Source: Algisphaera agarilytica
GTDB lineage: Bacteria > Planctomycetota > Phycisphaerae > Phycisphaerales > Phycisphaeraceae
Assembly (NCBI RefSeq): GCF_014207595.1
Contig: NZ_JACHGY010000001.1
Location: forward strand, 2,982,836 to 3,046,835
Length of the DNA: 64,000 nt
Direction of reading: 5' to 3'
Below are positions 46,266 through 63,992 of the stretch, one piece after another. Both the position numbers and the translations under genes were made by a program. Every line of letters begins with the position of its first letter. Positions within the stretch are counted from its first letter, which is position 1. The notes under the pieces were generated by a model. It saw only the letters and a program-made list of their open reading frames with translations. It did not search any database and was not told the origin of the DNA.

Positions 46266-46624
46266 GCGTCACCGCCTTCCGCGTCGGTATCGGCCGCTTG
46301 CGGCTTAGCGCTGTCGGGCGAGCGCGGCGGAGCCGCGTCGCTTCCGGTGGCGATTTCGCGGTGGTACTTGTCGTCGAGGCGGTTCATCGAGATGGCGTAG
46401 ACCAGGATAAGCAGCACGAACGTGATGATGCTGCCTTGCTGGGCGAACCAGAATCCCAGGGGCACGCCGCCGACCGAGGCAAGGTCGTTGAGCTTGTCGG
46501 CAAACAGGATCCCGCAGCCGAGGCCGACGAAGGCCCAGATCGCCAGCAGTCCAACCATGAGGGTGACGTTGCGTCGCCAGTAGCGCTGCTTGGCCTGGGA
46601 CACCCGATCCGCGGAATCACTCAT
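46262..46624 (-). CDS. DUF4212 symporter small subunit
   Basis: A 120-residue protein with two membrane helices (about residues 22-45 and 60-82). The YWRRNVTLMVGLLAIWAFV and FWFAQQGSIITFVLLILVY patterns are characteristic of DUF4212. This small subunit always accompanies a sodium:solute symporter of the next gene's type. The last 35 residues are a Pro/Ala/Asp tail. The two genes overlap by four bases (ATGA). They may be read together with the fucosidase gene upstream, 173 bases away. Confidence 0.9.
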   Translation of the reverse strand: MSDSADRVSQAKQRYWRRNVTLMVGLLAIWAFVGLGCGILFADKLNDLASVGGVPLGFWFAQQGSIITFVLLILVYAISMNRLDDKYHREIATGSDAAPPRSPDSAKPQAADTDAEGGDA

Positions 46625-46760
46625 GAGCGATCGTCCTTTGCGAGTTCGTGAAACAGCCCGGCCAGAACGCCGGATAGAGAAAAGCCGTGAACCTCGGCTC
46701 GGCCATGAAAACCGAAAACCGTGTCCACGGCAAGAGGTGTGTGATGTTTACGAAGTGGCG

Positions 46761-46781
46761 AGCGTGCAAGTAGTGCACGCT
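46761..46781. promoter_or_regulatory. Perfect palindrome between fucosidase and DUF4212 genes
   Basis: AGCGTGCA, five bases, TGCACGCT: an eight-pair perfect dyad, 17 bases after the fucosidase stop. No T-run follows on the minus strand, so an operator or processing hairpin is likelier than a terminator. Confidence 0.4.
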
Positions 46782-46797
46782 TCTGCCGACTTTCGAG

Positions 46798-48324
46798 TTA
46801 CCAGTGCTTGAATCGATAGGGCGAGCTGTCTAACTCGGGCCCGAAATCGACCACGACCACATCCGTCACGTGTCCCGCTTTCGATCCTTCGGGGATCGCG
46901 ATCGTCAGGGTCTGGTCGGCGAAGGTGTAGTCGAGCTCCTCGCCGGTGCACATGAGTTTGACCGAGACCGGCTCGGCGGCGTCTTGCAAGACGATCGGGT
47001 CTTCGGCGGTGGCTTGATCTTTGGTGGCGTGGAAGTACCACACGGCGTCGCGGCAAGTGATGGGGACATTACATTTCTCAGGCCAGGGGCCGCCGCCGTT
47101 GATGCCGAAGACCGAGTCGCGGTTAGTCTTCATCCACTGGGCCATGTCGTCGAATAGGCGGTAGGCCTCGTCGGGGAACTGGCCATCCGGGCGGGGGCCG
47201 ATGTTGGCCAGCAAGTTGCCGCCCATGCTGCGAGCCTCGGCGAGTTCCATCAGAAGCCTGTCGGAGGGCATGATGTATTCGGTTTGGCCGGGGCGTGCGT
47301 CGTAGTGCCACGAGCCGCGGGTGATGATGCTGTTGACCTCCCACCACCAGCCGTTGGCGACAACGGGTTTCTTGACGTACTGCGGCTCGGCCATGTGGAA
47401 GCCCTCGGCGGTGGCGTGGTCGCCGCCCTCGCCGCGGTTGTTGCAGACGATGCCGGGGCGCCACTCGCGGATTTGTTCGGCGGTTGCGCCGTGGCCGCCA
47501 TCGCCCCACCAGATGTCGGGATCGAACATGTCGATCAGCTCGCGGACCTGGGCCTGGTTGTATTCGTCGTAGGCCTGGCGGAAGCTGGGCGGGCGCTGGG
47601 GCAGCGACTTCACTTGCTTACCGTGGTAATCGATCAGCACCTTCGGCGAGTGGCTGAAGTTCATGTAGTCGCGTTCGAAGTACCAGTCCATGCCCGAGTA
47701 GTAGAAGCCGACGCGGATGTTGTGGTTGCGGCAGGCATCGACGAAGGGTTGGACCAGGTCTTTGCCATCGAGGTGTTGACGCACGCCCAGCAGGGCGTGG
47801 TCCGAGTCCCAGAGCGCGTAGCCGTCGTGGTGCTTGGTGGTGAGCACGGCGTAGGTAAAGCCGGCCTCCTCTGCGGCGGCCATCCACTTGTCGGCGTCGT
47901 ACTTCGTCGGGTTGAAAGTCTCGGCGGCGGCCCAGATGTCCGACTGTGGGTGGAATCGTCCGCTGTCGACCTTGGCCTGCGACCAGCGCCCGGCCCAGGC
48001 TTCGCCGGTGGGTTCAAACTCGCTGACGATGCCCCAGTGCATGAACAGGCCGAGGCCCGCTTGGGGCCACCACTGCGCATCGGGGTGGTCTGTGCGCTCG
48101 CCGCGCATCTGCATCTTGAAGTTCTTCCACTCGTGCCAATGGGGCCAGGTGTAGTAGTGCTTACCGTCGCGCACCTCGATCGTGGGTGTGATCGACTCGC
48201 CGGTCTTGGAGTCGGTGTAGGAGGCGGCGGAACCGTCTTCGCTTTGGCCGGGCACGACCTGGGATTGGGCGGCGATTGGCGCGAGACAGGACAGCGTGGC
48301 GAGGAGCAGGGTGGGGGTGGACAT
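46798..48324 (-). CDS. GH29 alpha-L-fucosidase, copy 1
   Basis: A 508-residue secreted glycosidase that removes terminal L-fucose. Signal peptide at residues 1-20 (LAPIAAQSQ end). The conserved GH29 blocks are intact: His96 (GLFMHWG), His165-His166-Asp167 (TTKHHDG), and the probable nucleophile Asp275 (DIWWGDGG). The position of the acid/base residue is not clear. ATG 48324 is favoured over 48366 because the hydrophobic core follows at once. A second copy lies 131 bases upstream. It likely acts on fucosylated polysaccharide (for example algal) in the periplasm or outside. A pair of 21-base direct repeats is found 65-103 bases before the start. Confidence 0.92.
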   Translation of the reverse strand: MSTPTLLLATLSCLAPIAAQSQVVPGQSEDGSAASYTDSKTGESITPTIEVRDGKHYYTWPHWHEWKNFKMQMRGERTDHPDAQWWPQAGLGLFMHWGIVSEFEPTGEAWAGRWSQAKVDSGRFHPQSDIWAAAETFNPTKYDADKWMAAAEEAGFTYAVLTTKHHDGYALWDSDHALLGVRQHLDGKDLVQPFVDACRNHNIRVGFYYSGMDWYFERDYMNFSHSPKVLIDYHGKQVKSLPQRPPSFRQAYDEYNQAQVRELIDMFDPDIWWGDGGHGATAEQIREWRPGIVCNNRGEGGDHATAEGFHMAEPQYVKKPVVANGWWWEVNSIITRGSWHYDARPGQTEYIMPSDRLLMELAEARSMGGNLLANIGPRPDGQFPDEAYRLFDDMAQWMKTNRDSVFGINGGGPWPEKCNVPITCRDAVWYFHATKDQATAEDPIVLQDAAEPVSVKLMCTGEELDYTFADQTLTIAIPEGSKAGHVTDVVVVDFGPELDSSPYRFKHW

Positions 48325-48388
48325 GAATGACACTTTCGGCAGGAGCAAATTTGAATCGCTTTGCACCTTACCGATTTACCGAACTGTG

Positions 48389-48427
48389 GCTATGCGCAAA
48401 CACGAGAAAGCTATGCACATTTACGAG
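48389..48427 (-). promoter_or_regulatory. 21-bp direct repeats before fucosidase copy 1
   Basis: Two units of 18 bases, beginning GCTATGCGCAAACACGAG (48389) and GCTATGCACATTTACGAG (48410), agree at 14 positions and lie exactly 21 bases apart. Two same-face direct repeats upstream of the promoter are typical of AraC/XylS binding sites. An AraC-type gene lies at 51078. TATGCA cores also occur before copy 2 (50008-50013) and before that regulator. Confidence 0.55.
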
Positions 48428-48454
48428 ATGTGCCGATCTATCGGGGGTTGCCCG

Positions 48455-49981
48455 TTACCAATGCTTGAACAGATAGGGCGTGGTATCGAAGTCCTTGCCG
48501 AAATCGACGACGACCACGTCGGTGACATGGCCGGCTTTCGTGTCATCGGGGATGGAGAATTTGAGCACGTTGTTGGCGTATGTGTATTCGAGCTCCTCGC
48601 CGGTTCGCATGAGCTTGACCGAGACCGGCTCGGCGGCGTCTTGCAAGACAATCGGGTCCTCGGCGGTGGCTTGTTTTGCGGTGGCGTGGAAGTACCACAC
48701 GGCGTCGCGGCAGGTGATGGGGACGTTGCAGCGTTCGGGCCAGGGGCCGCCGCCGTTGATGCCGAAGACCGAGTCGCGGTTGGTCTTCATCCATTCGGCC
48801 ATGTCGTCGAACAGGCGGTAGGCCTGCTCCTGCATCCTGCCGTCGGGGCGGGGTCCGATGTTGGCCAGCAGGTTGCCGCCCATGCACCGGGCTTTTGCGA
48901 GATGCATCAGGACGACATCGGAGTCGTAGATGCGTTCGCCGTGGTTTTTGTCGTAGTGCCACGAGCCGCCCTGGATGATGGCGTTGACTTCCCACCACCA
49001 GCCGTTGGCGACGACGGGTTTCTTGACGAATTGGGGATGGGCCATGTGGAAGCCCTCGGCGGTCGCGTGGTCGCCGCCGCCTAGGCCGCGGTTGTTGAGC
49101 ACGATGCCGGGCTTGAGGGCGCGGATGTCGTCGGCGTGCATGCCGTGGCCGCCGTCGCCCCACCAGATGTCGGGTTCGAACCGCTCCATGATCTCTTTGA
49201 CCTGCGCGGCGTTGTACTCCTCGTAGGCCTTGCTGAAACTCGGCGGCCGTTTCGGCAGCGACTTCACGTGTTCGCCCTTGTAATTGACGGGCCATTGAGG
49301 GTCGTAGCTGAAGCTTTTGTAGTCGCGTTCGAAATACCAATCCATGCCGGAGTAGTAGAAGCCGACCTTGATGCCGTGGTTTCGGCAGGCCTCGGTCCAC
49401 GGGGCGAGGAGGTCTCGGCCGTTCATGAATTGGCGGACCCCGATGAGGGCGTGGTCCGAGTCCCACATGGCGTAGCCGCCGTGGTGCTTGGTGGTGATGA
49501 CCGAGTATTGGAAGCCGGCCTTGGCGGCGGCGGCCATCCACTTCTCGGGGTCGTAATCCGTGGGGTTCCATCCCTCGGCAGCGGCCCAGATCTCAGACTG
49601 CGGGTAAAACGCGCCACGGTCCTCGCGATCCTGCGACCAGATGCCCGACCAGCCCTCGCCGTTGGGCTCGAAGGCGCTGGGCAGGCCCCAGCAGAGAAAT
49701 AAACCTAAGCCCGCGTCGGGCCACCACTGCGCATCGGGGTGGGTGGTTCGCGGGTTCTCGACGTGCATCTTGCCGTTGGTCCACTTATTCCAGTGCGGCC
49801 AGGTGTAATACGACTTGCCGTCATCGCGCACCTCGATGGTGGGTGTGATGGCCTCGCCGGTGGCGGGATTCTGATAGGCCTCGGCGGAGCCGTCTTCGGT
49901 TTGATCAGGGACGACCTGGGGCATCGCGGCGGGGGAGAACGCGCAGGAAATCAACAAGAGCAGCAGGGGGAGGTGTTTCAT
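48455..49981 (-). CDS. GH29 fucosidase-like protein, copy 2, altered active site
   Basis: A 508-residue secreted homologue of the neighbouring fucosidase. Signal peptide at residues 1-20 (ISCAFSPAAM). The nucleophile region is preserved (Asp276, DIWWGDGG), but two conserved positions differ. The HWG His is Cys97 (FLCWGL, codon 49691-49693), and the Asp after the His-His pair is Gly168 (TTKHHGG, codon 49478-49480). The His at the first position binds fucose in characterised GH29 enzymes. The copy may have a changed substrate range or reduced activity. The C-terminal 200 residues are nearly identical to copy 1, also at the DNA level. Confidence 0.88.
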   Translation of the reverse strand: MKHLPLLLLLISCAFSPAAMPQVVPDQTEDGSAEAYQNPATGEAITPTIEVRDDGKSYYTWPHWNKWTNGKMHVENPRTTHPDAQWWPDAGLGLFLCWGLPSAFEPNGEGWSGIWSQDREDRGAFYPQSEIWAAAEGWNPTDYDPEKWMAAAAKAGFQYSVITTKHHGGYAMWDSDHALIGVRQFMNGRDLLAPWTEACRNHGIKVGFYYSGMDWYFERDYKSFSYDPQWPVNYKGEHVKSLPKRPPSFSKAYEEYNAAQVKEIMERFEPDIWWGDGGHGMHADDIRALKPGIVLNNRGLGGGDHATAEGFHMAHPQFVKKPVVANGWWWEVNAIIQGGSWHYDKNHGERIYDSDVVLMHLAKARCMGGNLLANIGPRPDGRMQEQAYRLFDDMAEWMKTNRDSVFGINGGGPWPERCNVPITCRDAVWYFHATAKQATAEDPIVLQDAAEPVSVKLMRTGEELEYTYANNVLKFSIPDDTKAGHVTDVVVVDFGKDFDTTPYLFKHW

Positions 49982-50063
49982 GGGCAGGGCGATTGAGAGG
50001 TGAGGGATATGCAAAGAAGAGAGCCACGCCGCAGCTTCGCAGCGGCGGGCATTCGGGGATGTG

Positions 50064-50936
50064 TTAGTTGTCGCCGATGGCTTTGGGCTTGTTGGCGATG
50101 GATAGGTCGTTGCCGGCGGGGCGGGGTTGGTAGTTCCATTGGCCGACTCCGGTCGTGTCTTCGCCGCGGCAGAGGATGGCGTTATCGCGCCAGGTGGGGT
50201 GGAAGTTGAACGTGTCCGGGGCGCAGTAGCGGATGGTCAGGCCGCAGCGGCGGCGGGCCGAGGGGTTGGGGGTGGAGCCGTGGGCTATCATGTCGGCGTG
50301 GAGCTCGATTTGGCCGGCCTTGAGGTTGATCGAGACGGGGTCGCCGTACTGCTCGATGTCCTGGATTTCCTGGTTGAGCACGGCCGGGCCCGCGGTGTCT
50401 TGCCATTCGAGCTTGCCGAGGGTGTGCGTGCGGGGGATGACCTTCATCGCTGCGTTTTCTTCGTCCGCGTCGTCGATCGCCAGCCACACCGTGACGGTGC
50501 GCGACTTCTCAAACGGCCAATACGACGCGTCCTGGTGCCAGGGCACGGCCTTGGGGTCGTGGGGCACCTTGCAGAAGAAGTGCGTCCCCCACGCGACGAT
50601 ATTCGGGCCGATCAGGTCCTGCACGATGTCGAGGATCGCAGGGTGGGTGGCCATGTCGTAGATCCCCTCGCAGCGCGTGTGGTAGCCGTTGATCGCGTAG
50701 GTGTCGCGGCCGTCGTTGTGGACACGCATCGCCGCGAGCAGGTAGTCGAAGTAGGCCCGGTTGGCCTGCGCTTCGAGCTCGTTGTAGATGGAGAACGGCA
50801 TCAGGTAGCCGTCGCGGTTGTATTGCTCGACCTGGGCGGGGCTTAGTGTCTGGGCTTGGCTGGGATCTGAGGGCGCGAAACTCAGGTCGCGGCTGGCCAT
50901 CAGTTGTTCGTAAGCGGGTTCGGTGGTGGTGGGCAT
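50064..50936 (-). CDS. Phytanoyl-CoA dioxygenase (PhyH)-like protein
   Basis: A 290-residue cytoplasmic Fe(II)/2-oxoglutarate oxygenase of the PhyH family. The facial triad is visible: His134 and Asp136 (PWHQDASYW), His219 (MIAHGSTPN), with a downstream Arg around 230 for 2-oxoglutarate. The N-terminal DGYLMPFSIYN block is typical. The family hydroxylates varied substrates, and in marine Planctomycetota such genes are often found with sulfated or fucosylated polysaccharide loci. ATG 50936 (AAAGGT upstream) is chosen over 50981. It is divergent from the AraC-type regulator, with a shared 141-base promoter region. Confidence 0.85.
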   Translation of the reverse strand: MPTTTEPAYEQLMASRDLSFAPSDPSQAQTLSPAQVEQYNRDGYLMPFSIYNELEAQANRAYFDYLLAAMRVHNDGRDTYAINGYHTRCEGIYDMATHPAILDIVQDLIGPNIVAWGTHFFCKVPHDPKAVPWHQDASYWPFEKSRTVTVWLAIDDADEENAAMKVIPRTHTLGKLEWQDTAGPAVLNQEIQDIEQYGDPVSINLKAGQIELHADMIAHGSTPNPSARRRCGLTIRYCAPDTFNFHPTWRDNAILCRGEDTTGVGQWNYQPRPAGNDLSIANKPKAIGDN

Positions 50937-51008
50937 AACGGCATGACCTTTCGGGTCGAGAGATAGACTGAATTGAACCACTTCACCTTACTCAGGCAAC
51001 ACGAATTG

Positions 51009-52532: not shown

Positions 52533-53234
52533 ATGTCACGTCACACACGCTCCGGATTCACACTGATCGAATTACTGGTGGTCATCAGCATCATCGCTTT
52601 GCTGATCGGGCTGCTCCTGCCCTCGCTCGCCGCGGCCCGTGAGACGGCCCGTACGATGCAGTGCTCCAGTAAGATGAAGCAACTGGTCTTGGCGGCGGAG
52701 ATCTACGCCCAGGAATCCAAGGGGAAGTATCCCTCAAGAGCTGGCGACAACGGCGATGCTCGTTGGCCTCACTATTTCCGGCAGACGATCCAGACTCCCG
52801 AGTTGTTGGTTTGTCCTAACGATGAATCGCCGATTAGCCTGACGCCGCCTCAGGTCGTTGAGGAATTTGATATTGCGGATCGGAGCTATCTCTTCAATGG
52901 TTTTAATGACCTGAAGCACGATGCAAACGTGAGTGCGCCAAACGGCACATGGGACGAAGACGATGAAACCGCGATGCCACAGGCGGCCTTGGTGAACTTT
53001 TCTGAGGTCATCTTTTTCGGGGAGAAAGAAAGCAGCGAGGCGAGTTTTTACCTCGACATCTTTGCCAATGATCCCTACCGCGTGTTGGAACGCTCCCGCC
53101 ACGGTGGCACCGGCAACCCCGAGCGGGGCGGCGTCTCGAATTACGCATTTGGTGATGGCCACGTCACCGCGTACGAGTTCAACGATACCACCGTGCCGGT
53201 TAACCTCTGGGCGGTGACCGCAGACAACCGTTAA
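52533..53234 (+). CDS. Prepilin/pseudopilin-type secreted protein
   Basis: A 233-residue type IV pilin-like protein. The prepilin signal is textbook: [20 protein letters not shown] at residues 7-26, with cleavage before Phe and Glu at +5. The C-terminus has [12 protein letters not shown], then [14 protein letters not shown], the H-x-DG-type ending of the large planctomycete pseudopilin family. It is exported and assembled, or surface-exposed, through a type II/IV system not in this window. AAGGGG stands 11 bases before the ATG. Two palindromes precede it. Confidence 0.88.
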
Positions 53235-53394
53235 CCGGCATACGGGCTCCGTTTGGCAGTCCGAGATGTCCAGCGGGCCACCGGGGCGTTTGGCTGTGCT
53301 TGATATACTTGGCCGACCGGGGGTGCGGCGTTCAGGCCCCGCGTGCCTTCTGTATTCCTGTGGCTCGGCCTTCCTCGTTTCGGTGTGACCCAAC

Positions 53395-54711
53395 TTGTCC
53401 TTAGAACAAAAGATCCGTGACCGCTCAGCAACCGTCGGGGTGATCGGGCTCGGCTACGTCGGCCTGCCGTTGTGCCACGCCTTCCACGAGGCGGGGTTCG
53501 GTGTCCTGGGCTTCGACGTCGACCAGAAGAAGATCGATCGGCTCAACGCCGGGGAGAACTACCTCAAGCACCTGGGCGAGGAACTGGCCCAGAAGCTCAG
53601 CGGCTCGGACCGCTTCGAGCCCACCACGGATTTCGCCCGCCTAAGCGAAGCGGATGTCGTGATCTCCTGCGTCCCGACCCCGCTGGGCAAGCACCTCGAG
53701 CCGGACCTGTCGTACGTCGAACGGACCACGGCCGACATCGCCGCAGCCCTGCGTCCGGGGCAGCTGGTGGTGCTCGAATCGACCACCTACCCGCGGACCA
53801 CGCGTGAGATCATGCTCCCCGCGTTCGAGGCCAAGGGTTTGGCGTGTGGCAGCGACGACGGGTTCTACCTCGCCTACTCGCCGGAGCGGGAAGACCCGGG
53901 CCGGCAGAATCACAACACCCAGACGATCCCGAAGCTGGTCGGCGGGATCGACGATGAGTCGGGCCGATTGGCGGAGTTGCTCTACTCCGCGGCGATCGCG
54001 CAGGTCCACCGGGTGGACAGTGCCGAGATCGCCGAGGCCGCGAAGCTGCTCGAAAACATCTTCCGGGCGGTGAACATCGCGCTGGTCAATGAGATGAAGG
54101 TCGTGCTGACGAAGATGGGGATCAACATCTTTGATGTGGTCGAAGCGGCGTCAACCAAGCCGTTCGGCTTCATGCCGTTCTACCCCGGCCCCGGCTTGGG
54201 CGGGCACTGCATACCGATCGATCCGTACTACCTGACGTGGAAAGCGCGGGAGGTGGGGATTGCCACACGCTTCATCGAGCTGGCGGGTGAGGTGAACCGC
54301 GACATGCCGGGGTACGTCGTGCAGCGTCTGGCGGAAGGCCTGAACCGACACGGCCTGGCGATCAGCCGGTCGAAGGTGCTGGTGCTGGGGTTGGCGTACA
54401 AGCCGAACGTGGACGATGTGCGGGAGAGCCCGAGCTTCGAGATCATCGAGAAGTTGATCGACGCGGGGGCCGATGTGCAATACAACGACCCGCACATCCC
54501 CAAGCCGTGGAAGGGCCGGAAACACGACCTGACGCTGGAGAGCCAGCCGGTGACGCCCGAGACGCTGGCGGGCTACGACGCGGTGGTCGTGGCCACGCAC
54601 CACGACGCGTACGACTGGCAGATGATCGCCGACCACGCCAAGCTGATCATCGACACCCGCAACGCGTTGCGGGACGTGTCGGGGGATCGTTCGCACATTG
54701 TGATCGCTTGA
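53395..54711 (+). CDS. UDP-sugar 6-dehydrogenase (WbpA/WecC-like)
   Basis: A 438-residue nucleotide-sugar dehydrogenase that oxidises UDP-linked amino sugar to uronic acid in two steps with NAD. The Rossmann motif VIGLGYVGLP is at residues about 14-23. The catalytic Cys272 is in GLGGHCIPIDPYYL. The C-terminal domain has LGLAYKPNVDDVRESP. The length fits UDP-GlcNAc or UDP-ManNAc dehydrogenase rather than UDP-Glc dehydrogenase. The start is TTG at 53395. It opens the polysaccharide locus and supplies precursors for it. Confidence 0.9.
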   Translation: MSLEQKIRDRSATVGVIGLGYVGLPLCHAFHEAGFGVLGFDVDQKKIDRLNAGENYLKHLGEELAQKLSGSDRFEPTTDFARLSEADVVISCVPTPLGKHLEPDLSYVERTTADIAAALRPGQLVVLESTTYPRTTREIMLPAFEAKGLACGSDDGFYLAYSPEREDPGRQNHNTQTIPKLVGGIDDESGRLAELLYSAAIAQVHRVDSAEIAEAAKLLENIFRAVNIALVNEMKVVLTKMGINIFDVVEAASTKPFGFMPFYPGPGLGGHCIPIDPYYLTWKAREVGIATRFIELAGEVNRDMPGYVVQRLAEGLNRHGLAISRSKVLVLGLAYKPNVDDVRESPSFEIIEKLIDAGADVQYNDPHIPKPWKGRKHDLTLESQPVTPETLAGYDAVVVATHHDAYDWQMIADHAKLIIDTRNALRDVSGDRSHIVIA

Positions 54712-54898
54712 TTAACGGCTTGCCCCGGGCGAGGCATGGGGTATGCTTCCGGTCCGGCAGAGGCCCGTTGGGCCGCTGTCAGCGGGGGTTTTGCACCCTC
54801 AACGCGTTGGGTCCGATGGAGGAGTTTTGCCCGGAGGTCCGGTCGTAGCGTTTGGGGGGATTGAATCGGTTCGGTCGGAAACCTGTCCACGCTCTTAC

Positions 54899-57478
54899 AT
54901 GCAGATTCTCTTCATCAATCAGACTTACGCCCCCGACGTTGCGGCGTCGGCCCAGCTGCTCGAAGACATGGCTCGGCAGTTCGCCGACGCTGGTCACGAG
55001 GTGGCGATCGTTACCTCGCGCTCGCTCTACGGCCAGGCCGGGGCGGTGCTGCCGCGTTACGAGAAGCGCGACGGCGTCGAGGTCCACCGGGTCGGGGTCG
55101 CTCGCTTCGGTAAGGGTTCGGTCCGCGCCCGGACGTTTGACGCGACGATGTTCTACCTCGCCGCCACGTTCAAGGCCTGGCGGGTGCGGATGCCCAGCGG
55201 CAAGCCGCAGGTTGTCGTCACGCTGACCAGCCCGCCGTACATCGGGTTCATCGGGGTGATCGTGCGTTTCCTGCTGGGCGGCAACCGCCGAGGGCGCTAC
55301 GCGATCAACTGGTCGATGGACCTCTATCCCGACGTGCTCACCTCGGCGGGGATCGTGAAGCCCGAATCGTTGTTCGGCCGGATGATGCACCGGTTCAACC
55401 TGTGGTGCATGCGGCGGGCCGACCGGGTGGTGACGGTGGGGCGGTGCATGCGCGACCGGGTGGTGGGCCAGGGCGTGGAGCCCGCGGACGTCGAGATGAT
55501 CAGCGTCTGGCCGGTCAGCCGGGTGTTGGAATTGGAGGAAGCGCGACAGCCCTCGAGCTACCGCGAGGCGTGGGGGCTGGAAGACAAGTTTGTTGTGATG
55601 TACTCGGGCAACCTGGGTGTGGCTCACCGGGCCAAGATCCTGGCCGAGGCCGCCCAACGGCTTCAGCACCGCGACGACATCCGCTTTGTCTTTGTGGGCG
55701 GCGGTCGTCGTCGCGACGAGATTACGAAATATGTCGCCGAGCACGGCCTGACCAATGTGTTGGAGAAGGACTACGAGCCCCGCGAGAAACTCGAAGACCT
55801 GCTGCGGCTGGGGGATGTCCACCTCATCACACAGCGCTCGGAATTCACCGGCGTGGTCGTGCCCAGCAAGTTGTTCGGCATCATGGCGTCGTGCCGGCCG
55901 TCGCTGTACGTCGGCCCGCCCGAGGCTGAGGTGGCCCGGGTCTTGACCGAGAGCGGGGGCGGGCAGGTCTGCTCGATGGAGAGTGCCGATGATCTGGTCG
56001 CCCAGATCGAGCGTCTCGCGGACGACCGTTCGATCGCCTTGGATATGGGGCAAAAGGCCCGCGAGGCGGTGCTGACCAGCCACACCCTGCGGGACCGGTT
56101 CGAGAAATTCAATGCGATGCTCGAGGGCTTGCTGGGCCCCGAAGCCGCCCGTGCGATCCATACGCCAGCGATCAACCATGGGCAGAACCTGCCCGCCAAG
56201 CCGCTGCGGGTGTTGTTCATCAACCAGGCCTACGCCCCGGACGCCGCGGCGACCGCGCAGCACTGCGAAGACTTGGCTCGGTACCTCGTCGAGCAGGGCC
56301 ACGGCGTGTCGGTCATCGCCTCGCGATCGATCTACGGCCAAAAGGGTGCCGACCTCCCCGGGCGGGAGACGCGTCACGGCGTGCACGTTAACCGGGTCGG
56401 CTTGTCGCTCTTCGGTAAACGTGGCATCGTCCTGCGGGCCGTCGACTTCGGGCTGTTTTATGTCGCCGCCATGTGGCGGGCGATCTGGATCCGGGTGCCG
56501 ATCGGTGACCGGCTCAGCAAGCCCGACGTCGTGGTCACCCTGACGACGCCTCCGCTCATCGGCATGGTCGGTTGGATGATGCGCCTGCTGCGTCGCTGCC
56601 GGCAGGTGGTGTGGACCATGGACCTGTATCCCGATGTGCTCGTCGCCGCGGGGGTGAGCAAGCAAGACAGTCTGCTGACGCGCTTCTTTGCCTGGCTCAA
56701 CCGGCGTGAGATCGGCCGGGCCGACCGCGTGGTTGCGCTGGGCCGGTGCATGAAGGACCTGATCAAGGCCAAGGGCATCGGCGAGGACCACATCGAAGTC
56801 ATCGGCGTCTGGTCGCCCAACGACCCGCCGGAAGAACTCAGCGATCCGGCCGAGTCCAGCTACCGCGAGGAGTGGGGCCTCGAGGGCAAGTTCGTCGTGC
56901 AATACTCGGGCAACTTCGGCCTCGCCCACGACTACCAGACCTTCTGCGACACCATCCTTGAGCTGCGTGACCGCGACGACATCGTGTTCCTCTTCGCGGG
57001 CGGCGGCAAACGCATCCCGCCGTTGAAAGCGTTTGTCGAACAGCACGGCCTCAAGAACGTCATGATCCAGCCCTACCAGCCGCGTGAACGGCTGCTGGAC
57101 CTGCTGAGCCTGGCGGATGTCCACCTGATCAGCCAGTCCGAGTCGTTCACCGGCATCGTCGTCCCCAGCAAGTTGTTCGGCATCATGGCGGCGGGGCGGA
57201 CGTCGCTGTTTGTCGGCCCGCCCGATGCCGAGGTCGCCCGCGTCCTCGACGAAACCGGGGGCGGCATCCGGTTCCCGCTCGGCGACGCCAAGGCGCTGGC
57301 CGACGTCATCCTCCAACTCGCCCACGACCCCGAACGCGTGCAGCGGATGGGGCAGGCGGCCTTGGATGCGTCGCGCGGCGAACACCACCGCAACAGCCGT
57401 TTCCACGCCTGGGAAGACCTGCTGGTCGAGGTCGTATCGCAAGCCCCGGCGCCGAGTCTGCCGGTGCCCCCTCTGTAA
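54899..57478 (+). CDS. Tandem double GT4 glycosyltransferase
   Basis: An 859-residue protein formed by two complete GT-B glycosyltransferase modules. Module 1 is residues about 1-415; module 2 is about 436-850. They start alike (QILFINQTYAPDVAASAQ against RVLFINQAYAPDAAATAQ). They also share the Rossmann loops SRSLYGQ/SRSIYGQ, MDLYPDVL, FVGGGRR/FAGGGKR, and the nucleotide-sugar region VVPSKLFGIMA. This is the WcaI-like GT4 family. The modules are clearly homologous but diverged, so an old duplication with fusion is likely. ATG 54899 fits the module start; the frame is open upstream. No membrane helix is evident. It may add two consecutive sugars. Confidence 0.9.
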   Translation: MQILFINQTYAPDVAASAQLLEDMARQFADAGHEVAIVTSRSLYGQAGAVLPRYEKRDGVEVHRVGVARFGKGSVRARTFDATMFYLAATFKAWRVRMPSGKPQVVVTLTSPPYIGFIGVIVRFLLGGNRRGRYAINWSMDLYPDVLTSAGIVKPESLFGRMMHRFNLWCMRRADRVVTVGRCMRDRVVGQGVEPADVEMISVWPVSRVLELEEARQPSSYREAWGLEDKFVVMYSGNLGVAHRAKILAEAAQRLQHRDDIRFVFVGGGRRRDEITKYVAEHGLTNVLEKDYEPREKLEDLLRLGDVHLITQRSEFTGVVVPSKLFGIMASCRPSLYVGPPEAEVARVLTESGGGQVCSMESADDLVAQIERLADDRSIALDMGQKAREAVLTSHTLRDRFEKFNAMLEGLLGPEAARAIHTPAINHGQNLPAKPLRVLFINQAYAPDAAATAQHCEDLARYLVEQGHGVSVIASRSIYGQKGADLPGRETRHGVHVNRVGLSLFGKRGIVLRAVDFGLFYVAAMWRAIWIRVPIGDRLSKPDVVVTLTTPPLIGMVGWMMRLLRRCRQVVWTMDLYPDVLVAAGVSKQDSLLTRFFAWLNRREIGRADRVVALGRCMKDLIKAKGIGEDHIEVIGVWSPNDPPEELSDPAESSYREEWGLEGKFVVQYSGNFGLAHDYQTFCDTILELRDRDDIVFLFAGGGKRIPPLKAFVEQHGLKNVMIQPYQPRERLLDLLSLADVHLISQSESFTGIVVPSKLFGIMAAGRTSLFVGPPDAEVARVLDETGGGIRFPLGDAKALADVILQLAHDPERVQRMGQAALDASRGEHHRNSRFHAWEDLLVEVVSQAPAPSLPVPPL

Positions 57479-57496
57479 ATTCGAAGATTGGGCCGC

Positions 57497-58498
57497 TCAG
57501 GACACCTTGGCCGAAGCCGGTGAATCCGCACGCCCCCAGCCGCGGATGTCGCCTTGGTTGGCCTTACACCACGCGACCGTCTGTTCCACACCTTGTTCCA
57601 GCGGGACCCGAGCGCTCCAGCCGAGTTGCTCGTGGGCGCGTTCCATGCTGAGGCAGCGTCTGGGCTGGCCGTCGGGCTTGTCGTGGTCCCAGGTGATTTG
57701 CCCCTTGAAGCCGGTCGCGTCGGCGATGATCTCGGCCAGTTCCTTGATGGGGGTTTCACGGCCCGATCCGAGGTTGATCGGCGTGGTTTCATCGACGCGG
57801 TCCGCGGTGTGGATCAGCCCGTCGGCCGCATCGGTGACGTAGAGGAACTCGCGGCTGGCTTTGCCCGAGCCCCAGACGCTGACGGTGTCCTCGCCGCGCT
57901 CGATCGCGTGGAGGAACTTTCGGATCAGCGCGGGCATGACGTGGGCGGTCTGCAGGTCGAAGTTGTCGTTGGGCCCGTAGAGGTTCACGGGGATGAGCAT
58001 GCACGATTGGAGGCCGTACTCCCGCCGGTAGCCGTCGAGCATGACGCCCAGGGACAGCTTGGCGATGCCGTAGGGCGCGGTGATGGGGGCGGGGTAGCTG
58101 TTCCAGAACTGGTCTTCGGTGAACGGCCGGGTGGCGTTTTCGGGGTAGGCGCAGACGGTGCCGCAGTGCACGAACTTCCGCAGGCCGTGGATGCGGGCCT
58201 GCTCGATCAGGTGGATGCCCATCGCGAAGTTGGCGTAGAAGAACCGTCCGGGGTGGGCTTGGTTGGCCCCGATCCCGCCGACTTCCGCGGCAAGGTGGAA
58301 GATCACATCGGGCTTAAACCGCTGGTACATCGACGCCACCTGGGCCTCGTCGGTCAGCTCGACCTCGGCGTGGGTGGGGGCGTAGAGCCGGTCCGCGGTC
58401 ACACCGCGGTCACGCAGGGTTTGGCACAGTTGTGTTCCAAGAAAGCCGTGCCCACCGGTGACCAGGATGCGGTCATGTTCAAAGTTGAGGTGACTCAT
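57497..58498 (-). CDS. GDP-L-fucose synthase-like SDR epimerase/reductase
   Basis: A 333-residue short-chain dehydrogenase of the extended type. The NAD(P) motif GGHGFLG is at residues 15-21. The catalytic set is Thr/Ser in CGTVCAYP (about 112-119), Tyr143 and Lys147 (APYGIAK). The WcaG/Fcl pattern (HLAAEVGGIGANQ, NLYGPNDNFD) fits GDP-L-fucose synthase, though other epimerase functions remain possible. ATG 58498 is preferred over 58582 because it begins just before the Rossmann fold. It is convergent with the double glycosyltransferase, 18 bases away. If it makes GDP-fucose, the organism both builds and degrades fucosylated glycans. Confidence 0.82.
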   Translation of the reverse strand: MSHLNFEHDRILVTGGHGFLGTQLCQTLRDRGVTADRLYAPTHAEVELTDEAQVASMYQRFKPDVIFHLAAEVGGIGANQAHPGRFFYANFAMGIHLIEQARIHGLRKFVHCGTVCAYPENATRPFTEDQFWNSYPAPITAPYGIAKLSLGVMLDGYRREYGLQSCMLIPVNLYGPNDNFDLQTAHVMPALIRKFLHAIERGEDTVSVWGSGKASREFLYVTDAADGLIHTADRVDETTPINLGSGRETPIKELAEIIADATGFKGQITWDHDKPDGQPRRCLSMERAHEQLGWSARVPLEQGVEQTVAWCKANQGDIRGWGRADSPASAKVS

Positions 58499-58618
58499 GG
58501 GAAGCAAACGAACAAAAGGAAGTGACGAGAGGAGTATATGCTTACTGTCCCGAGGGGGGTAGAGTTCGTTGAACTCTTTCATACAAACAAAAAGGTGTTG
58601 GGCGGCTTCTCTATTTTC

Positions 58619-60109
58619 TCAGCCCGACGCCAGCATCGCCAGCAACATCACCCCAAACACCAGGGCCCAACTCACCCGGTCGCCCACCGCCCAGGCCACA
58701 GGGTCTTCGTTCATGTGCCCCCGCTGAGCGATCAGCCAGATCCGCGACACCCAGTACACAAACAGCGGCACCACCGGCCAAAGCATGGCCGGCTTGGCGT
58801 AGAGCTCCTTGCTGATCGGGTCGTTGAGGTACAGGCACAGAATCACCGCCCCGGCATACCCCGAGACCACGCCCATCAGCTGGATCAGCCCGCGGTCCTC
58901 GGGCAGGTAGCCCCGCTCGGTGTGACGGGCGGGCTCGCCGGGCTGCGTCGCCGCTTCGTCGGCCATGTTCCGAAGCTCCGCGTATCGCTTGAGAAAACCC
59001 AGGCTCAGAAACAGGAAGATCGACAGCGTCAGCAACCAGAACGACGGGGTGATCTGGACCACCGCGCCACCGGCAAAGATTCGCAGGGCGTACAAACCCG
59101 CCAGCGTGATCACATCCAATAGCAGCCGGCTACGCAGCGTCGTGCTGTAGAGCACCGTCACCACCAAATATGCAACCAGCCAGCCCAGGAATTCGATCGG
59201 CAGGAACACCGCCGCGAACAGCAGGGCGGTCCCCATCAGCACGGGCACCGCGGCGATCGCGGTGGGGATCGGTAATCGGCCCGACGCGATCGGCCGCCGT
59301 GACTTGGTCGGGTGCGTGCGGTCGGCGTGGACGTCCAGAGTGTCGTTCACCAGATAAATGCTCGACGCGGCCAGACAGAAACAAACGATCCCCCAGAACA
59401 CACTCAGCAGGTTGCCCGCCGTGACCGCGTGGCCCGCCAGCATGGGCACCAACAGCAACCCGTTTTTGACCCACTGCCGCGGACGCATCCCCGCCAGCAA
59501 CGCGCCCCACGCCGGGCCTTGCATCTCGAAGGCTCGGCAGGCCCCGCCGTCGCTGGTGACCCGTTGGTACAGCTTTTCGTTACCCCCGGCCATAAGGCGT
59601 TCGTCGGCCTCGGCCCAGATCGGCTCGTCCGCCGAGCTGTCGCCCATGTACGCAAACGGCTGGCCGTCGGCGTGCTTGCGGATGGCTTCCAACTTGGCCT
59701 TGCCCTTCAGGTTGGTCTGCCCGTCCGTTGCCAGCACGTCATCGAAGAGGCCCAGGTGCTCGGCGACACGCTCGGCCGCGGGGCAGTCCGCCGCCGTGGC
59801 CAGGATCAGCTGGCGACCTTGGTCGCGTTGTTCACGCAGATACGCCAACACCTCCGGGCGGTAGGGCAGCTCCGACGCCTCGGGCATCGCCCGCTCCGCC
59901 AGCTGCCGCTTGAGCATTGGCCGCCCTTGAGCCAGCCAGCCCGGCACACACCACAGCGACGCCGGGTCGGCCTTGACCAGCCCGACCGCGCTCTCGATCA
60001 GCAGGTCGCTCTGGATCAGCGTGCCGTCGAGATCGACGTAAAGCGATGGGCCGATCGCCGATGCATCGTTGGCCCCGGGCTTCGGTGAGGTGTCGGCATC
60101 GATCGTCAT
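58619..60109 (-). CDS. HAD phosphatase-UbiA prenyltransferase fusion
   Basis: A 496-residue bifunctional protein. Residues about 22-185 are a HAD hydrolase (nucleophile Asp26 and Asp28 in VDLDGT, late GDSSAD at 156-161). Residues about 205-496 form a UbiA-type membrane prenyltransferase with several helices and the aspartate motif NDTLDVHAD at 255-263. UbiA relatives include the decaprenyl-phosphate 5-phosphoribosyltransferase of mycobacterial arabinan synthesis, in which a phosphatase acts next. A fusion would couple lipid-linked phosphoribose formation with dephosphorylation. This is inference; substrates are not known. It probably supplies a polyprenyl-linked sugar to the polysaccharide locus. 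Confidence 0.88.
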   Translation of the reverse strand: MTIDADTSPKPGANDASAIGPSLYVDLDGTLIQSDLLIESAVGLVKADPASLWCVPGWLAQGRPMLKRQLAERAMPEASELPYRPEVLAYLREQRDQGRQLILATAADCPAAERVAEHLGLFDDVLATDGQTNLKGKAKLEAIRKHADGQPFAYMGDSSADEPIWAEADERLMAGGNEKLYQRVTSDGGACRAFEMQGPAWGALLAGMRPRQWVKNGLLLVPMLAGHAVTAGNLLSVFWGIVCFCLAASSIYLVNDTLDVHADRTHPTKSRRPIASGRLPIPTAIAAVPVLMGTALLFAAVFLPIEFLGWLVAYLVVTVLYSTTLRSRLLLDVITLAGLYALRIFAGGAVVQITPSFWLLTLSIFLFLSLGFLKRYAELRNMADEAATQPGEPARHTERGYLPEDRGLIQLMGVVSGYAGAVILCLYLNDPISKELYAKPAMLWPVVPLFVYWVSRIWLIAQRGHMNEDPVAWAVGDRVSWALVFGVMLLAMLASG

Positions 60110-60420: not shown

Positions 60421-61347
60421 TCACTTGACCACAATCAGTTCGAGCACCGCACGCCGGCCGAACAGCAGATGGACGGCCTTGGCGTAACGGATCAGCCAGA
60501 TCATCGGCCGGGGGCTGGTGCCGTGGCTCAGCAACCAGTTGATGGTCTTGGGGGAATACTGAGCGGAGCCCAGCCGGGTCCCTTGGATACGGCCGAGGAT
60601 ACCCATCTTCGCTTCCTTGAAAACGCTGCCGCAGTTGGGGGCCGAGTGGTCCTGGTTCTCTTTCGAGTACGCGATGCGTTGGCTGATGGGCAGGCTCTTG
60701 CGATCCACGGCCTTCTTTTTTTTGTCCGAGCCGTCTTCGGCGGGTGACGCCCCGTCGGCCGCTGCGTCCTCGGCGGCATCGGGCTGACGTTCGGGCAGCT
60801 CGGGGAAATTGAAAGTTGCTTCGAGGATGAGGGAGTTGTTCAGCCCCGTGAACATGGTCTTGCGGTATGACAGTTCGATTTCGTCTCGGCGGAGGGTGAT
60901 CACCTCGTTGCCGTCGAAGTACGTCACGGTTTCCACGAAATCGAAGATCGTCTGGTTGTAAATCCGGCCCCGCCCGGCATTCATCGCCAACGCCCCGCCG
61001 AGCGTCGCGGGGACCGAGGCGAGGTAGTAGAAGCAGTCGAGGTTGCGGTCCTGGCAGTGCTTCAGGATCACCGAGATGGGCAGCGAAGAGCTCGCCTTGA
61101 CGTGCGTCTCGTCACCTAGCGTGGTCAGGTCTTTCTTGAGCTTGTTGCGAAGAACCAGAGACCGTACTTTGGTTTTTGCAAAAATGGTGTTCGAGCCGTT
61201 GCCGAGGATGTAGAAGTCAACGTTCTTGTCTTTGGCCCAGGCCACGCAATCTTTGAATTCCTCGATCGTTGAGAATTCCGCGTAGTTTTCGAAGTGGTGG
61301 TGGGTCCGGAAAGTGCTGAGTTTGTCTGAGTCGAGTGGTTCGATCAC
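60421..61347 (-). CDS. MurB-like FAD-dependent reductase
   Basis: A 308-residue FAD enzyme related to UDP-N-acetylenolpyruvylglucosamine reductase. It has the MurB loop pattern: LGNGSN (residues 48-53), then VPATLGGALAMNAGRG (112-127) and DEIELSYRKTMF (155-166, Arg162). The catalytic Ser241 is in NCGSVFKE and the C-terminal Glu303 in LELIVV. All three residues that act in MurB seem present. A charged insertion of about 35 residues (187-221, rich in Asp/Ala and Lys) is unusual. Lying next to a pyruvyl transferase rather than to mur genes, it may act on an enolpyruvyl sugar of an exopolysaccharide. It could instead be an ordinary MurB; this cannot be settled here. Confidence 0.8.
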   Translation of the reverse strand: MIEPLDSDKLSTFRTHHHFENYAEFSTIEEFKDCVAWAKDKNVDFYILGNGSNTIFAKTKVRSLVLRNKLKKDLTTLGDETHVKASSSLPISVILKHCQDRNLDCFYYLASVPATLGGALAMNAGRGRIYNQTIFDFVETVTYFDGNEVITLRRDEIELSYRKTMFTGLNNSLILEATFNFPELPERQPDAAEDAAADGASPAEDGSDKKKKAVDRKSLPISQRIAYSKENQDHSAPNCGSVFKEAKMGILGRIQGTRLGSAQYSPKTINWLLSHGTSPRPMIWLIRYAKAVHLLFGRRAVLELIVVK

Positions 61348-62393
61348 GCCAAGGCCTCCGCAAGAAACCCCGTGGATTGATCTCGAAGCGCCGCGAGCTT
61401 TGCTTCAGATTCGGTGAAATCGATGGGGCTGTCCATGGCGGATTCGACATGGTCCGGGCCCTCGATCACCCGGTGCGACAGCCCGACCCGGCTCAGCACA
61501 TCGTCGAGGCGCTGCTGATCGGTGCCCGGCATCCGGACGACGAAGAAGGGCAGTTTCCATTTGATGCAGAAGCACACGCCGTGGAAAGAGTTGGTGACGA
61601 GGTAGCTCGCGTTGCGAATGCAGTAGAGCCATTCGCGGGGGCCGATACCGATCAGGCCTTCGTCGGCACCCGGCGAAAGGACCCCTAGGGAGATCGCGGG
61701 CAGTTGAAGTTTGGCCTTGGCGGCGTTCACCGCCTGGCCGAAGACCTCGGCACGTTTCAGGCAGTACACCGCCATATATTTCTCGGGGAGCTTGGGTACC
61801 GGTCGCTCCACTCCTTCGAAGTCATCGAGAAAGACCGGGTCGAGCACTTCGGTGGGTATCCGGCCGCACGCCTTTTCAACCATCTCACGGCTGACCACAT
61901 CGCGCACCGAGAGGTGGTCGAATTTCAGCAGCTGCTCACGGATTTCTTGCTCGTGGGGATCGAAGGAAACCGTGGAGCCCACGGACGCGGCGTAACTGAT
62001 TCTGCGGTGGTTGTGCTCGGGGCTGATACCCTCGAAGAACGGGCGGTCGTAGCCGCGGTATGAAGAGATGTTCCAAACCTGGTCGCTGCCGATGATCACC
62101 GCGTCGAGGTCTTGATTGGAGCCTGCGAGGGATGCGATATCGTTGTGCGTGTTTTTACTTAGGTGCAACGCTTTCTTGCGAAAACTACCGAACTTCAACC
62201 GCTTCTTGGCCGTCACCCAGGCCGTGCCGGACCTGAGGCCGAAGCGGTTGTAGTGCTTCCGGGCGGACTCGGGGCGGTAGTCGATCACCCGGACGTCGTG
62301 CCCGGCTTTTTCCAGATAAGACTGCGTTGCGTAGGTTTGTAAGACTGCGCCGAAGTTGTCGGCGGCGTGGAAGGTCAATATGCCGATACGCAT
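61344..62393 (-). CDS. Polysaccharide pyruvyl transferase family protein
   Basis: A 349-residue protein of the PS_pyruv_trans family (CsaB/PssM/WcaK relatives), which move pyruvate from phosphoenolpyruvate to a sugar. The N-terminal IGILTFHAADNFGAVLQTYA and the mid DAVIIGSDQVWN are family marks. VTNSFHGVCFCIKWKLPFFV lies late. Its stop overlaps the start of the MurB-like gene by four bases, so the two are very probably made in fixed proportion. It is divergent from the flippase gene, 117 bases away. Role: decorating the polysaccharide assembled by this locus. Confidence 0.85.
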   Translation of the reverse strand: MRIGILTFHAADNFGAVLQTYATQSYLEKAGHDVRVIDYRPESARKHYNRFGLRSGTAWVTAKKRLKFGSFRKKALHLSKNTHNDIASLAGSNQDLDAVIIGSDQVWNISSYRGYDRPFFEGISPEHNHRRISYAASVGSTVSFDPHEQEIREQLLKFDHLSVRDVVSREMVEKACGRIPTEVLDPVFLDDFEGVERPVPKLPEKYMAVYCLKRAEVFGQAVNAAKAKLQLPAISLGVLSPGADEGLIGIGPREWLYCIRNASYLVTNSFHGVCFCIKWKLPFFVVRMPGTDQQRLDDVLSRVGLSHRVIEGPDHVESAMDSPIDFTESEAKLAALRDQSTGFLAEALA

Positions 62394-62510: not shown

Positions 62511-63992
62511 ATGGCTCAGACCCAAAGCAACAACCTTGGCCAACGCGCGGCTCAGGCGCTTGCTTGGACACTGCTGCTCACGTTGTTTTCAAAGGTCATT
62601 TCACTGGGCGGGCAGGTCGTTTTGGCTTGGCTCCTCGCCCCCCGGGCGTTCGGTTTGATCGGCTTGGCGTACACGCTAACGGCGTTCACCGCGCTGCTAC
62701 AGCGGGCCGGGATCCGAGAGGTCCTGGTCCACCGGCACCGGCGTTTTCACCTGTGGGCGACGCCGGGATTCTGGATGTCCCTGACGTTCGGTGTGCTGAC
62801 ATCGGCCGTGATGTTGGGGATGGCCCCGGTCTTGGCCAGGGTCTACGGCGAGCCCGAATTGGTCGGGCTGATCATGGTTCTGGCCCTGGCCGCACCGATC
62901 AACGGCGTCGCCTCGGTCGCCGATGCGAAGCTGCAGAGCCAGCTACGTTTCGGCCTGATCTCGCGGGTCGGGATGCTTCAAGCCATCCTCACCATGGGGC
63001 TGACCATCTTGTTCGCCTGGTTGGGTTTTGGGGCATACAGCTTCGTGATGCCCCAGCCGATTGCGGCACTCTTTAACCTAGTCTGCCTCTGGCGCGCCGC
63101 CGACGTTTCGGTGACGGGCAAGCCCCGCTTCAGTTGTTGGCGTTACCTGCTCAGCGACAGCTTGGTCATGCTGTTGGGCAGCGTGTTGATTGCCGTGATC
63201 GCTCAGGGCGACTACTTCATCCTGGGTCTGGTGCTGGACGCCACGGAGGTCGGCCTCTATTTCTTCGCTTTCAACTTGTCGATTCAGGTCATTACGTTGT
63301 TTAGCAGCCAGTTCACGCGCGTGCTGTTTCCGACCCTTGCATCGATCGACGATCCCTACCGCCAGACCGAGGTCTATCTGCGGGTCAGCCGGATGTTGAC
63401 CCTGGCTGCGATGCCGTTTGCGGGCATGCAGATCCTGATCGCCGATCCGCTGATCCGCCTGATGTTTGATGAGCGTTGGTATCCCGCCATCACGATCTTT
63501 CAGGTGCTCAGCCTCGCGACCGTGTTCCGCGTGGTCAGCACCTCGGCGGGTAGCCTGCTTCAGGCGCAGGGCCGATTCAAATTTCGGCTCTACATCTTTT
63601 GTTGCTACACGCCGATCTTCCTGGCTGCGGTGTATCTCGGGACGGTCAGCCGTGGAGACGCGGTGGGGGCCGCGCTCGGCGTGTCGTCGTTCTACTCGGT
63701 GATCGGTTTCCTGCACGTCTGGCTGATCAGTCATAAATACGGCGGGACGTGGAAGGACATCGTGACGATTTATGCGGCGCCGCTAATCGCCACCGCCTTG
63801 TCGATGGGGATCGCGTGGTTGGCGATGGAGCAGCTGCCGGATGCGACCCCGATCGGCAAGATCGGCTGCATCGCCCTGGGGATCGCGTTGATGTTGCCGA
63901 TCTACGTCTTGGTCGCCCGGCTGCTCGCACGAGAGATTTTTGACGAGATCATCCAGCGGCTGATGAAACTGGTGAAACGAAAACGCGGGTAA
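62511..63992 (+). CDS. Wzx-like polysaccharide flippase
   Basis: A 493-residue inner-membrane protein of the MOP superfamily, with about 12-14 hydrophobic helices and a short basic C-terminus (LMKLVKRKRG). The N-terminal AWTLLLTLFSKVISLGGQVV and the motif around LAPRAFGLIGLAYTL are typical of O-antigen/polysaccharide flippases (MviN/RfbX type). It moves undecaprenyl-linked repeat units across the membrane. It ends eight bases before the window does. The ATG at 62511 has no clear ribosome site. The flippase and the modifying enzymes next to it suggest Wzx/Wzy-type export; polymerase not in window. Confidence 0.9.
   Translation: MAQTQSNNLGQRAAQALAWTLLLTLFSKVISLGGQVVLAWLLAPRAFGLIGLAYTLTAFTALLQRAGIREVLVHRHRRFHLWATPGFWMSLTFGVLTSAVMLGMAPVLARVYGEPELVGLIMVLALAAPINGVASVADAKLQSQLRFGLISRVGMLQAILTMGLTILFAWLGFGAYSFVMPQPIAALFNLVCLWRAADVSVTGKPRFSCWRYLLSDSLVMLLGSVLIAVIAQGDYFILGLVLDATEVGLYFFAFNLSIQVITLFSSQFTRVLFPTLASIDDPYRQTEVYLRVSRMLTLAAMPFAGMQILIADPLIRLMFDERWYPAITIFQVLSLATVFRVVSTSAGSLLQAQGRFKFRLYIFCCYTPIFLAAVYLGTVSRGDAVGAALGVSSFYSVIGFLHVWLISHKYGGTWKDIVTIYAAPLIATALSMGIAWLAMEQLPDATPIGKIGCIALGIALMLPIYVLVARLLAREIFDEIIQRLMKLVKRKRG

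Follow-up and report, generated by a model that had tools for sequence, protein, structure and literature searches.

The stretch of DNA analysed here, called the window throughout, comprises 64,000 nucleotides of Algisphaera agarilytica (contig NZ_JACHGY010000001.1, positions 2,982,836 to 3,046,835), and it carries a gene for a glycosyltransferase in which two homologous GT4 modules are joined in one polypeptide. The gene, its parts and its neighbours are the following:

53395-54711, plus strand: nucleotide-sugar dehydrogenase, directly upstream of the fused gene (TIGR03026 over cut-off)
54899-57478, plus strand: fused GT4-GT4 glycosyltransferase of 859 aa, starting with an ATG at the conserved N-terminus of the family
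54899-56146, plus strand: N module, residues 1-416 (about 1-414), WcaI-like GT4, the diverged copy
56147-56203, plus strand: linker between the modules, approximately residues 417-435, about 20 aa, with pLDDT below 50 at 415-432
56204-57475, plus strand: C module, residues 436-859 (domain to about 850), WcaI-like GT4, the conservative copy
57497-58582, minus strand: GDP-L-fucose synthase-like gene (fcl), convergent, 18 bp past the fused gene
61344-62393, minus strand: polysaccharide pyruvyl transferase
62511-63992, plus strand: Wzx/MOP-type flippase-like gene

The translation of 54899-57478 contains no internal stop; the reading frame stays open upstream to 54716, and the part from there to 54899 has no similarity to the family. 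When the protein is split at residue 436, its halves are 48% identical over 429 columns (E 2e-124), with 66% identity over 1082 columns at the nucleotide level, and each half alone passes the Pfam gathering scores for an N-terminal GT4 domain (PF13579/PF13439) and a C-terminal GT1/GT4 domain (PF00534/PF13692). Both halves are thus glycosyltransferase modules of the GT4 family (GT-B fold), and the sequence-only reading was right in describing two complete modules with parallel motifs and a short linker, as the modules have about 415-425 residues each and the linker about 20. It had also asked for a check for an internal start near 56160, and no in-frame ATG lies between M407 and the C module; the in-frame alternatives at the C module are a GTG (codon 438) and a TTG (codon 439), neither of them with a clear Shine-Dalgarno sequence. 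An antisense frame of 887 aa that covers the fused gene was taken as an artefact of G+C-rich codon usage. A promoter scan of 53200-58700 gave no promoter-like sites and fewer terminator-like sites than the shuffled mean.

An AlphaFold2 model (mean pLDDT 85.6) predicts two GT-B units with confidence, connected by a flexible tether, the linker being disordered at 415-432, and with a pTM of 0.53 the mutual placement of the two units is undefined in the model. The underlying alignment had 35 sequences and included 34 relatives out of 80 loci, both fused and single-domain ones, that had no stop in the matched part (a stop excluded L065 and L096, and L059 was left out by choice). In structural comparisons with VIA-align, residues 1-416 matched BshA (3mbo) with a Z of 37.4, residues 435-849 matched 6kih with 37.1, and residues 436-850 matched MshA (3c4q) with 36.8. 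The second-ranking Foldseek hit was 8qoy, a capsule multienzyme that has two modules, and a search of PDB sequences returned distant GT4 matches only. The alignments of both modules cover the WcaI models nearly end to end, with scores of 176.4 (N half) and 167.8 bits (C half) under the cut-off of the WcaI subfamily NF007640 (276 bits), which the entire protein exceeds (339) only through the summing of its two halves, and of 98.8 and 90.3 far under that of the WcaI equivalog TIGR04007 (800 bits). An EX7E pair was not found among the columns that are at least 97% conserved in 73 single-domain relatives, and when the site was placed by eye with the numbering of MshA, the canonical form seemed to occur in neither half.

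The genes around the fused gene point to the synthesis of an exopolysaccharide. The nucleotide-sugar dehydrogenase stays near the fused gene in both other sequenced genomes of the genus, and fcl is found near it in all three members. The Fcl protein matches solved GDP-L-fucose synthases well (7ll6, E 7e-63; 1bsv, E 1e-60), and as it scores 278 against an NCBIfam cut-off of 500, GDP-L-fucose synthase is given here as a putative product. In the two other members of the genus, as judged from the frames, a gmd-type gene lies beside fcl (in G002 with 533 bits in the gmd model, cut-off 415), and the window's genome has a gmd over cut-off and a second fcl-like gene, both elsewhere. The fused gene is followed by fcl, a HAD-UbiA protein, a MurB-like protein, the pyruvyl transferase and the Wzx-type flippase, and past the end of the window there are GT2 and GT4 genes, an acetyltransferase of the WcaF family (over cut-off) and a GT87 gene. 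No Wzy was identified in the cluster, in which the frame L167:7380-8894 has no Pfam or NCBIfam match. Since fcl, the nucleotide-sugar dehydrogenase, the pyruvyl transferase, Wzx and the WcaF-family acetyltransferase are all neighbours, the sequences place the fused gene in what would be a colanic-acid-like exopolysaccharide cluster. A Wzx flippase together with several glycosyltransferases is typical of repeat-unit assembly and not of ABC-dependent polymerisation. The HAD-UbiA protein (58619-60109, minus strand) is a fusion of a HAD phosphatase and a UbiA-type prenyltransferase (NF006088 over cut-off) that adjoins the MurB-like FAD protein and has weaker matches to decaprenyl-phosphate phosphoribosyltransferases. 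Farther upstream, at 43938-50981, the window contains two adjoining alpha-L-fucosidase genes, accompanied by genes for a sodium:solute symporter and a PhyH-family protein, and genes for fucose breakdown and for fucose use in a fucose-type exopolysaccharide cluster are found near each other.

A search for the same fusion in other genomes, as the sequence-only reading had proposed, found it in a second species of the genus. Among 61 genomes, the window's own included, a full-length match recurs in G002 as an open frame of 904 aa with 58% identity over residues 2-850, which is identical in record JALZVY010000164.1 ('Phycisphaera sp.'). Between the two species, the N modules are 57.8-59% and the C modules 55.3-57% identical, and N and C modules share 46-50%. 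The same fusion in an independent genome of the genus, with halves that share 59% and 57% identity with those of the window, means that neither an assembly collapse nor a duplication artefact accounts for it, and that it is not recent. In the third genome (G001, L022:1-216), the N half is present at 59% identity and ends near residue 231, about 0.2 kb from the contig end, followed by unrelated sequence, so that the fusion can neither be confirmed nor denied there. A tree of 131 GT4 domains unites the four modules of the two species in one group (SH-aLRT 96), in which the two N modules stand together (SH-aLRT 100), and places this group as sister to single-domain proteins of genus g21 (SH-aLRT 98). 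As judged from this topology, the fused gene arose by tandem duplication of a single-domain WcaI-like glycosyltransferase gene and fusion of the copies, and since the four modules group together beside g21, both events must have taken place inside family f1, before the two species parted.

The two modules have not diverged equally. Of 77 single-domain sequences, 73 were used for a count of conserved columns (L020, L143, L012 and L112 were dropped as long-branched, epimerase-fused or short), and 85 columns were conserved in at least 90% of them. In the N modules 11 (window) and 12 (G002) of these columns are changed, in the C modules 1 and 4, respectively. At 18 sites a new residue is common to both N modules while both C modules have the consensus, the reverse was found at none, and 72 of the 73 single-domain relatives are closer to the C module than to the N module. 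The changes in the N module tend to lie on the acceptor side (7 of 51 columns versus 1 of 34), a trend that is not significant (p 0.14). The sequences thus indicate that the C module has kept the ancestral residues and that the N module has diverged. With 11-12 altered columns out of 85 in the N module as compared to 1-4 in the C module, it could be thought that only the C module is catalytic and that the N module is a structural partner that holds the acceptor or docks to the membrane, and homologous glycosyltransferases that interact and complement each other do exist, as described for PssG/PssI of Rhizobium (PMC9961541). However, 73-74 of the 85 columns are retained in the N module, most of the listed changes are conservative by eye, and the N modules are as conserved between the species as the C modules (57.8% and 55.3%, respectively), which argues against a decay of either module, and a non-catalytic N module is therefore rather unlikely. 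The C module is read here as the bearer of the conserved ancestral activity, and the N module would have a new activity that has been maintained.

The fused gene is one of several double fusions in the order, where a GT4 module precedes a WcaI-like module in 24 of 301 sampled genomes. By kind of the N module, these are 2 genomes with the kind of the window (kind A), 10 with kind B and 13 with kind C, with G300 being counted in both B and C (its kind-C copy was read from L048, a named record of the same bin). Kind A belongs to family f1 and kinds B and C to family f3, and in 22 of the 24 genomes the N module is an unrelated one of two kinds. The first set of long frames that was read comprised 2 distinct proteins of kind A, 9 of kind B and 16 of kind C. 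Of 392 genomes sampled from the phylum, 16 gave matches at E 1e-70 or better, and a frame of the fused size was found only in the window's genome and in G055. The claim that such fused pairs are uncommon therefore holds for the pair of two WcaI-like modules, which was found only in this genus, but not for double fusions of a GT4 with a WcaI-like module in general. Long frames in G172, G070 and G150 (L135, L136, L138) contain only one glycosyltransferase each. In one genome (G146), a 774-aa frame (L143:3226-5547) has an NAD-dependent sugar epimerase ahead of the WcaI-like GT4 module, and in another (G122), a 581-aa frame (L159:4832-6574) has a shortened kind-C N module of about 170 aa and a complete WcaI-like module, which perhaps reflects a decay of the front module. 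WcaI-like genes from bins that are labelled Limnohabitans and Rhodospirillales (L106, L087) are nested among planctomycete ones, and these bins are likely mislabelled or contaminated.

The kinds B and C also differ in the genes that precede them. Kind-B proteins have an FnlC-like gene 0-4 bp upstream (9 of 9), mostly with an FnlA-like (8 of 9) and an FnlB-like gene (7 of 9). At kind-C loci, FnlA-, FnlB- and FnlC-like genes are absent in 16 of 16 cases, 15 of the 16 have a heparinase II/III-like gene at 0 bp, and 11 carry a WecB-like gene, which are all 11 that have at least 3 kb of upstream sequence. These family calls were made from single examples, with 605 bits for FnlA (cut-off 730), 490 for the WbjC/FnlB-type reductase (cut-off 500) and 222 for WecB (cut-off 210). 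As WbuB-type glycosyltransferases accompany FnlABC in some O-antigen clusters of Plesiomonas described in PMC6467956, the N modules of kind B may by analogy be called FucNAc-transferase-like, and this co-occurrence is the sole ground for the name. L140 and L129 have no FnlB between FnlA and FnlC, and this is evidence against reading these two simply in terms of FucNAc. Leaving aside the fused proteins and the truncated L159, the loci compared contained no relatives of the N modules of kinds B and C with more than about 29% identity.

It can be asked whether the joining has any function of its own, as a fused protein could act just like two separate single-domain enzymes, without channelling or coupling. 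Glycosyltransferase genes frequently adjoin each other in carbohydrate gene cassettes (PMC5702140), so that fusion through the loss of a stop codon should be easy, and in the kind-B proteins that were inspected at the DNA level, the C module still starts with an ATG. However, the WcaI-like module has repeatedly been joined to an N-terminal partner (kinds A, B and C, and the epimerase), and the fused state has outlasted the divergence of species, which makes a neutral fusion improbable.

In family f3, the N modules were exchanged, as concluded from sequence comparisons. The C modules of L131, L139, L137 and L110 (kind B) and of L048 and L052 (kind C) form one clade (100/100), whereas the N modules of the former four and the latter two belong to unrelated GT4 groups. 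In 50-column windows, the identity of L110 or L137 to L048 is about 19-38% within the N half, compared with 86-100% within the C half. At the DNA level, counted in steps of 15 bases, 0-7 of 15 positions are identical before the start of the C module, 13-15 in the first step of it and 8-13 thereafter, in 4 of 4 pairs examined, and in the case of L131 and L110 versus L052, the homology continues beyond the gene. A tree in which the C modules of kind B were forced into a single clade was rejected (p-AU 8e-42). Kind B and kind C each require 4 changes of the N kind, and the starred branches force 2 of these for kind B and 3 for kind C. As different assemblies are the source of L131 (400-kb contig), L110 (40 kb) and L052 (49 kb), a single chimaeric contig cannot explain the exchange. 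In G300, a single metagenome bin, L137/L089 and L048 have C-module DNA that is about 90% identical and unrelated N modules, and as L137 and L048 come from this one bin, they may be two loci or stem from two mixed strains. The N modules were thus swapped in front of a nearly identical C module, with its first codon as the boundary, and their upstream sugar-nucleotide genes moved along with them. A generalisation would be that the WcaI-like GT4 is a constant terminal module ahead of which different front modules are plugged in, be it its own duplicate, a GT4 that is FucNAc-transferase-like, a third kind of GT4 or once an epimerase. Each front would bring along its sugar-nucleotide genes, and the boundary would be the first codon of the constant module; this is a tentative idea that we would sooner expect to fail than to hold.

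As to the donor, fcl lies within 600 bp in 35 of the 71 single-domain WcaI-like loci that have at least 1.1 kb of upstream sequence, and it is in all 35 cases upstream and on the same strand, which makes GDP-L-fucose the most likely donor for one module or both. The other 36 loci have no fcl within 600 bp, and as these include the two closest relatives (L142 and L025 of g21), the specificity for fucose is not secure for the branch of the fused gene. The gene context therefore favours a GDP-L-fucose donor for the WcaI-like group overall, and for this branch GDP-L-fucose is a putative donor. In colanic acid, fucose is added at the second and third step according to a paper on fucosyllactose production (PMC12075129), which names wcaJ, wcaE and wcaI as the initiating genes, and because fucose enters at these two steps, it is proposed that the fused enzyme carries out two consecutive transfers. 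It would be a bifunctional glycosyltransferase at the cytoplasmic side of a Wzx-dependent pathway for a fucose-containing exopolysaccharide, having originated by the tandem duplication of a single-domain WcaI-like GT4 gene and the joining of its copies before the two sequenced species of the genus split. The C module would catalyse the ancestral reaction, most likely the transfer from GDP-L-fucose (or a close GDP-6-deoxyhexose) to a lipid-linked acceptor, and the N module most likely a neighbouring transfer, for which the donor would be identical or similar and the acceptor or linkage different, so that the single polypeptide may add two residues in succession.

A disaccharide step in a single enzyme, which was one of the two functions initially suggested from the sequence, is thus the best-supported reading of the sequence data, and in the specific form in which a single enzyme extends a lipid-linked repeat unit by two residues in a row, with donors, acceptors and order of transfer presumed as above, it has about an even chance of being correct. 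The other suggested function, a control of the alternation between two linkages, is possible but less favoured: WbdA has the same general plan of homologous glycosyltransferase modules in one chain, with one GDP-mannose-dependent module per linkage (PMC11231755), and the Foldseek hit 8qoy also has two modules, but a polymerase of this type, whose modules alternate on a growing chain to make a homopolymer or a polymer of disaccharide repeats for export by an ABC transporter, is improbable in a cluster that has a Wzx-type flippase and several other glycosyltransferase genes.

Among known systems, WcaI, the colanic acid GT4 of E. coli, is the closest parallel in that the modules of the fused protein align along nearly the whole WcaI models, and the colanic acid genes and the setting of the fused gene have gmd and fcl (in the genome), a pyruvyl transferase, a WcaF-family acetyltransferase and Wzx in common, but WcaI is a single module (model length 407-411), whereas the fused protein has two that are each under both model cut-offs. 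Two or three glycosyltransferase modules per polypeptide are known from WbdA (E. coli O9/O9a and Klebsiella O3/O5), WbbM and WbbY, as described in PMC11231755, and in WbdA each module makes one linkage with GDP-mannose as the sole donor; compared by description, these are polymerases of the ABC-transporter pathway, in contrast to the fused gene with a Wzx-type flippase in its cluster. In xanthan synthesis, GumH and GumI likewise carry out two consecutive transfers with one GDP-sugar donor (PMC13104830), but they are separate proteins of two glycosyltransferase families and, unlike the fused gene, neither fused nor duplicates. PssG and PssI of Rhizobium leguminosarum are homologous and interact, with complementary roles in the synthesis of the exopolysaccharide subunit (PMC9961541), but also these are separate proteins, unlike the fused GT4 pair. 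The fusions of kinds B and C in the order also have a WcaI-like C module behind a GT4, but in them the N module comes from one of two other GT4 groups and has been swapped between clades. A fusion or duplicate pair of the WcaI type, or an exchange of N modules at a module boundary, was not found in the literature searched, a collection with few subscription papers. Multi-module glycosyltransferases are already known, and the WcaI-like duplicate pair appears to be a new variant among them.

Multi-module glycosyltransferases serve as models of how the order of linkages is determined by an enzyme, and a duplicate pair of which one half is conservative and the other diverged makes it possible to test directly how a second specificity comes about. 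The occurrence of one C module behind two unrelated N modules provides natural chimaeras that mark workable points for cutting and rejoining, which would be useful for the engineering of glycans and also for understanding the variation of cell-surface polymers in planctomycetes. If the tentative scheme of a constant terminal module with exchangeable fronts were true, these bacteria would have a natural plug-in assembly line for two-sugar steps, in which one recombination at the module boundary could switch the structure of a surface polymer, and the fused gene of the window would be the self-duplicated version of this scheme.
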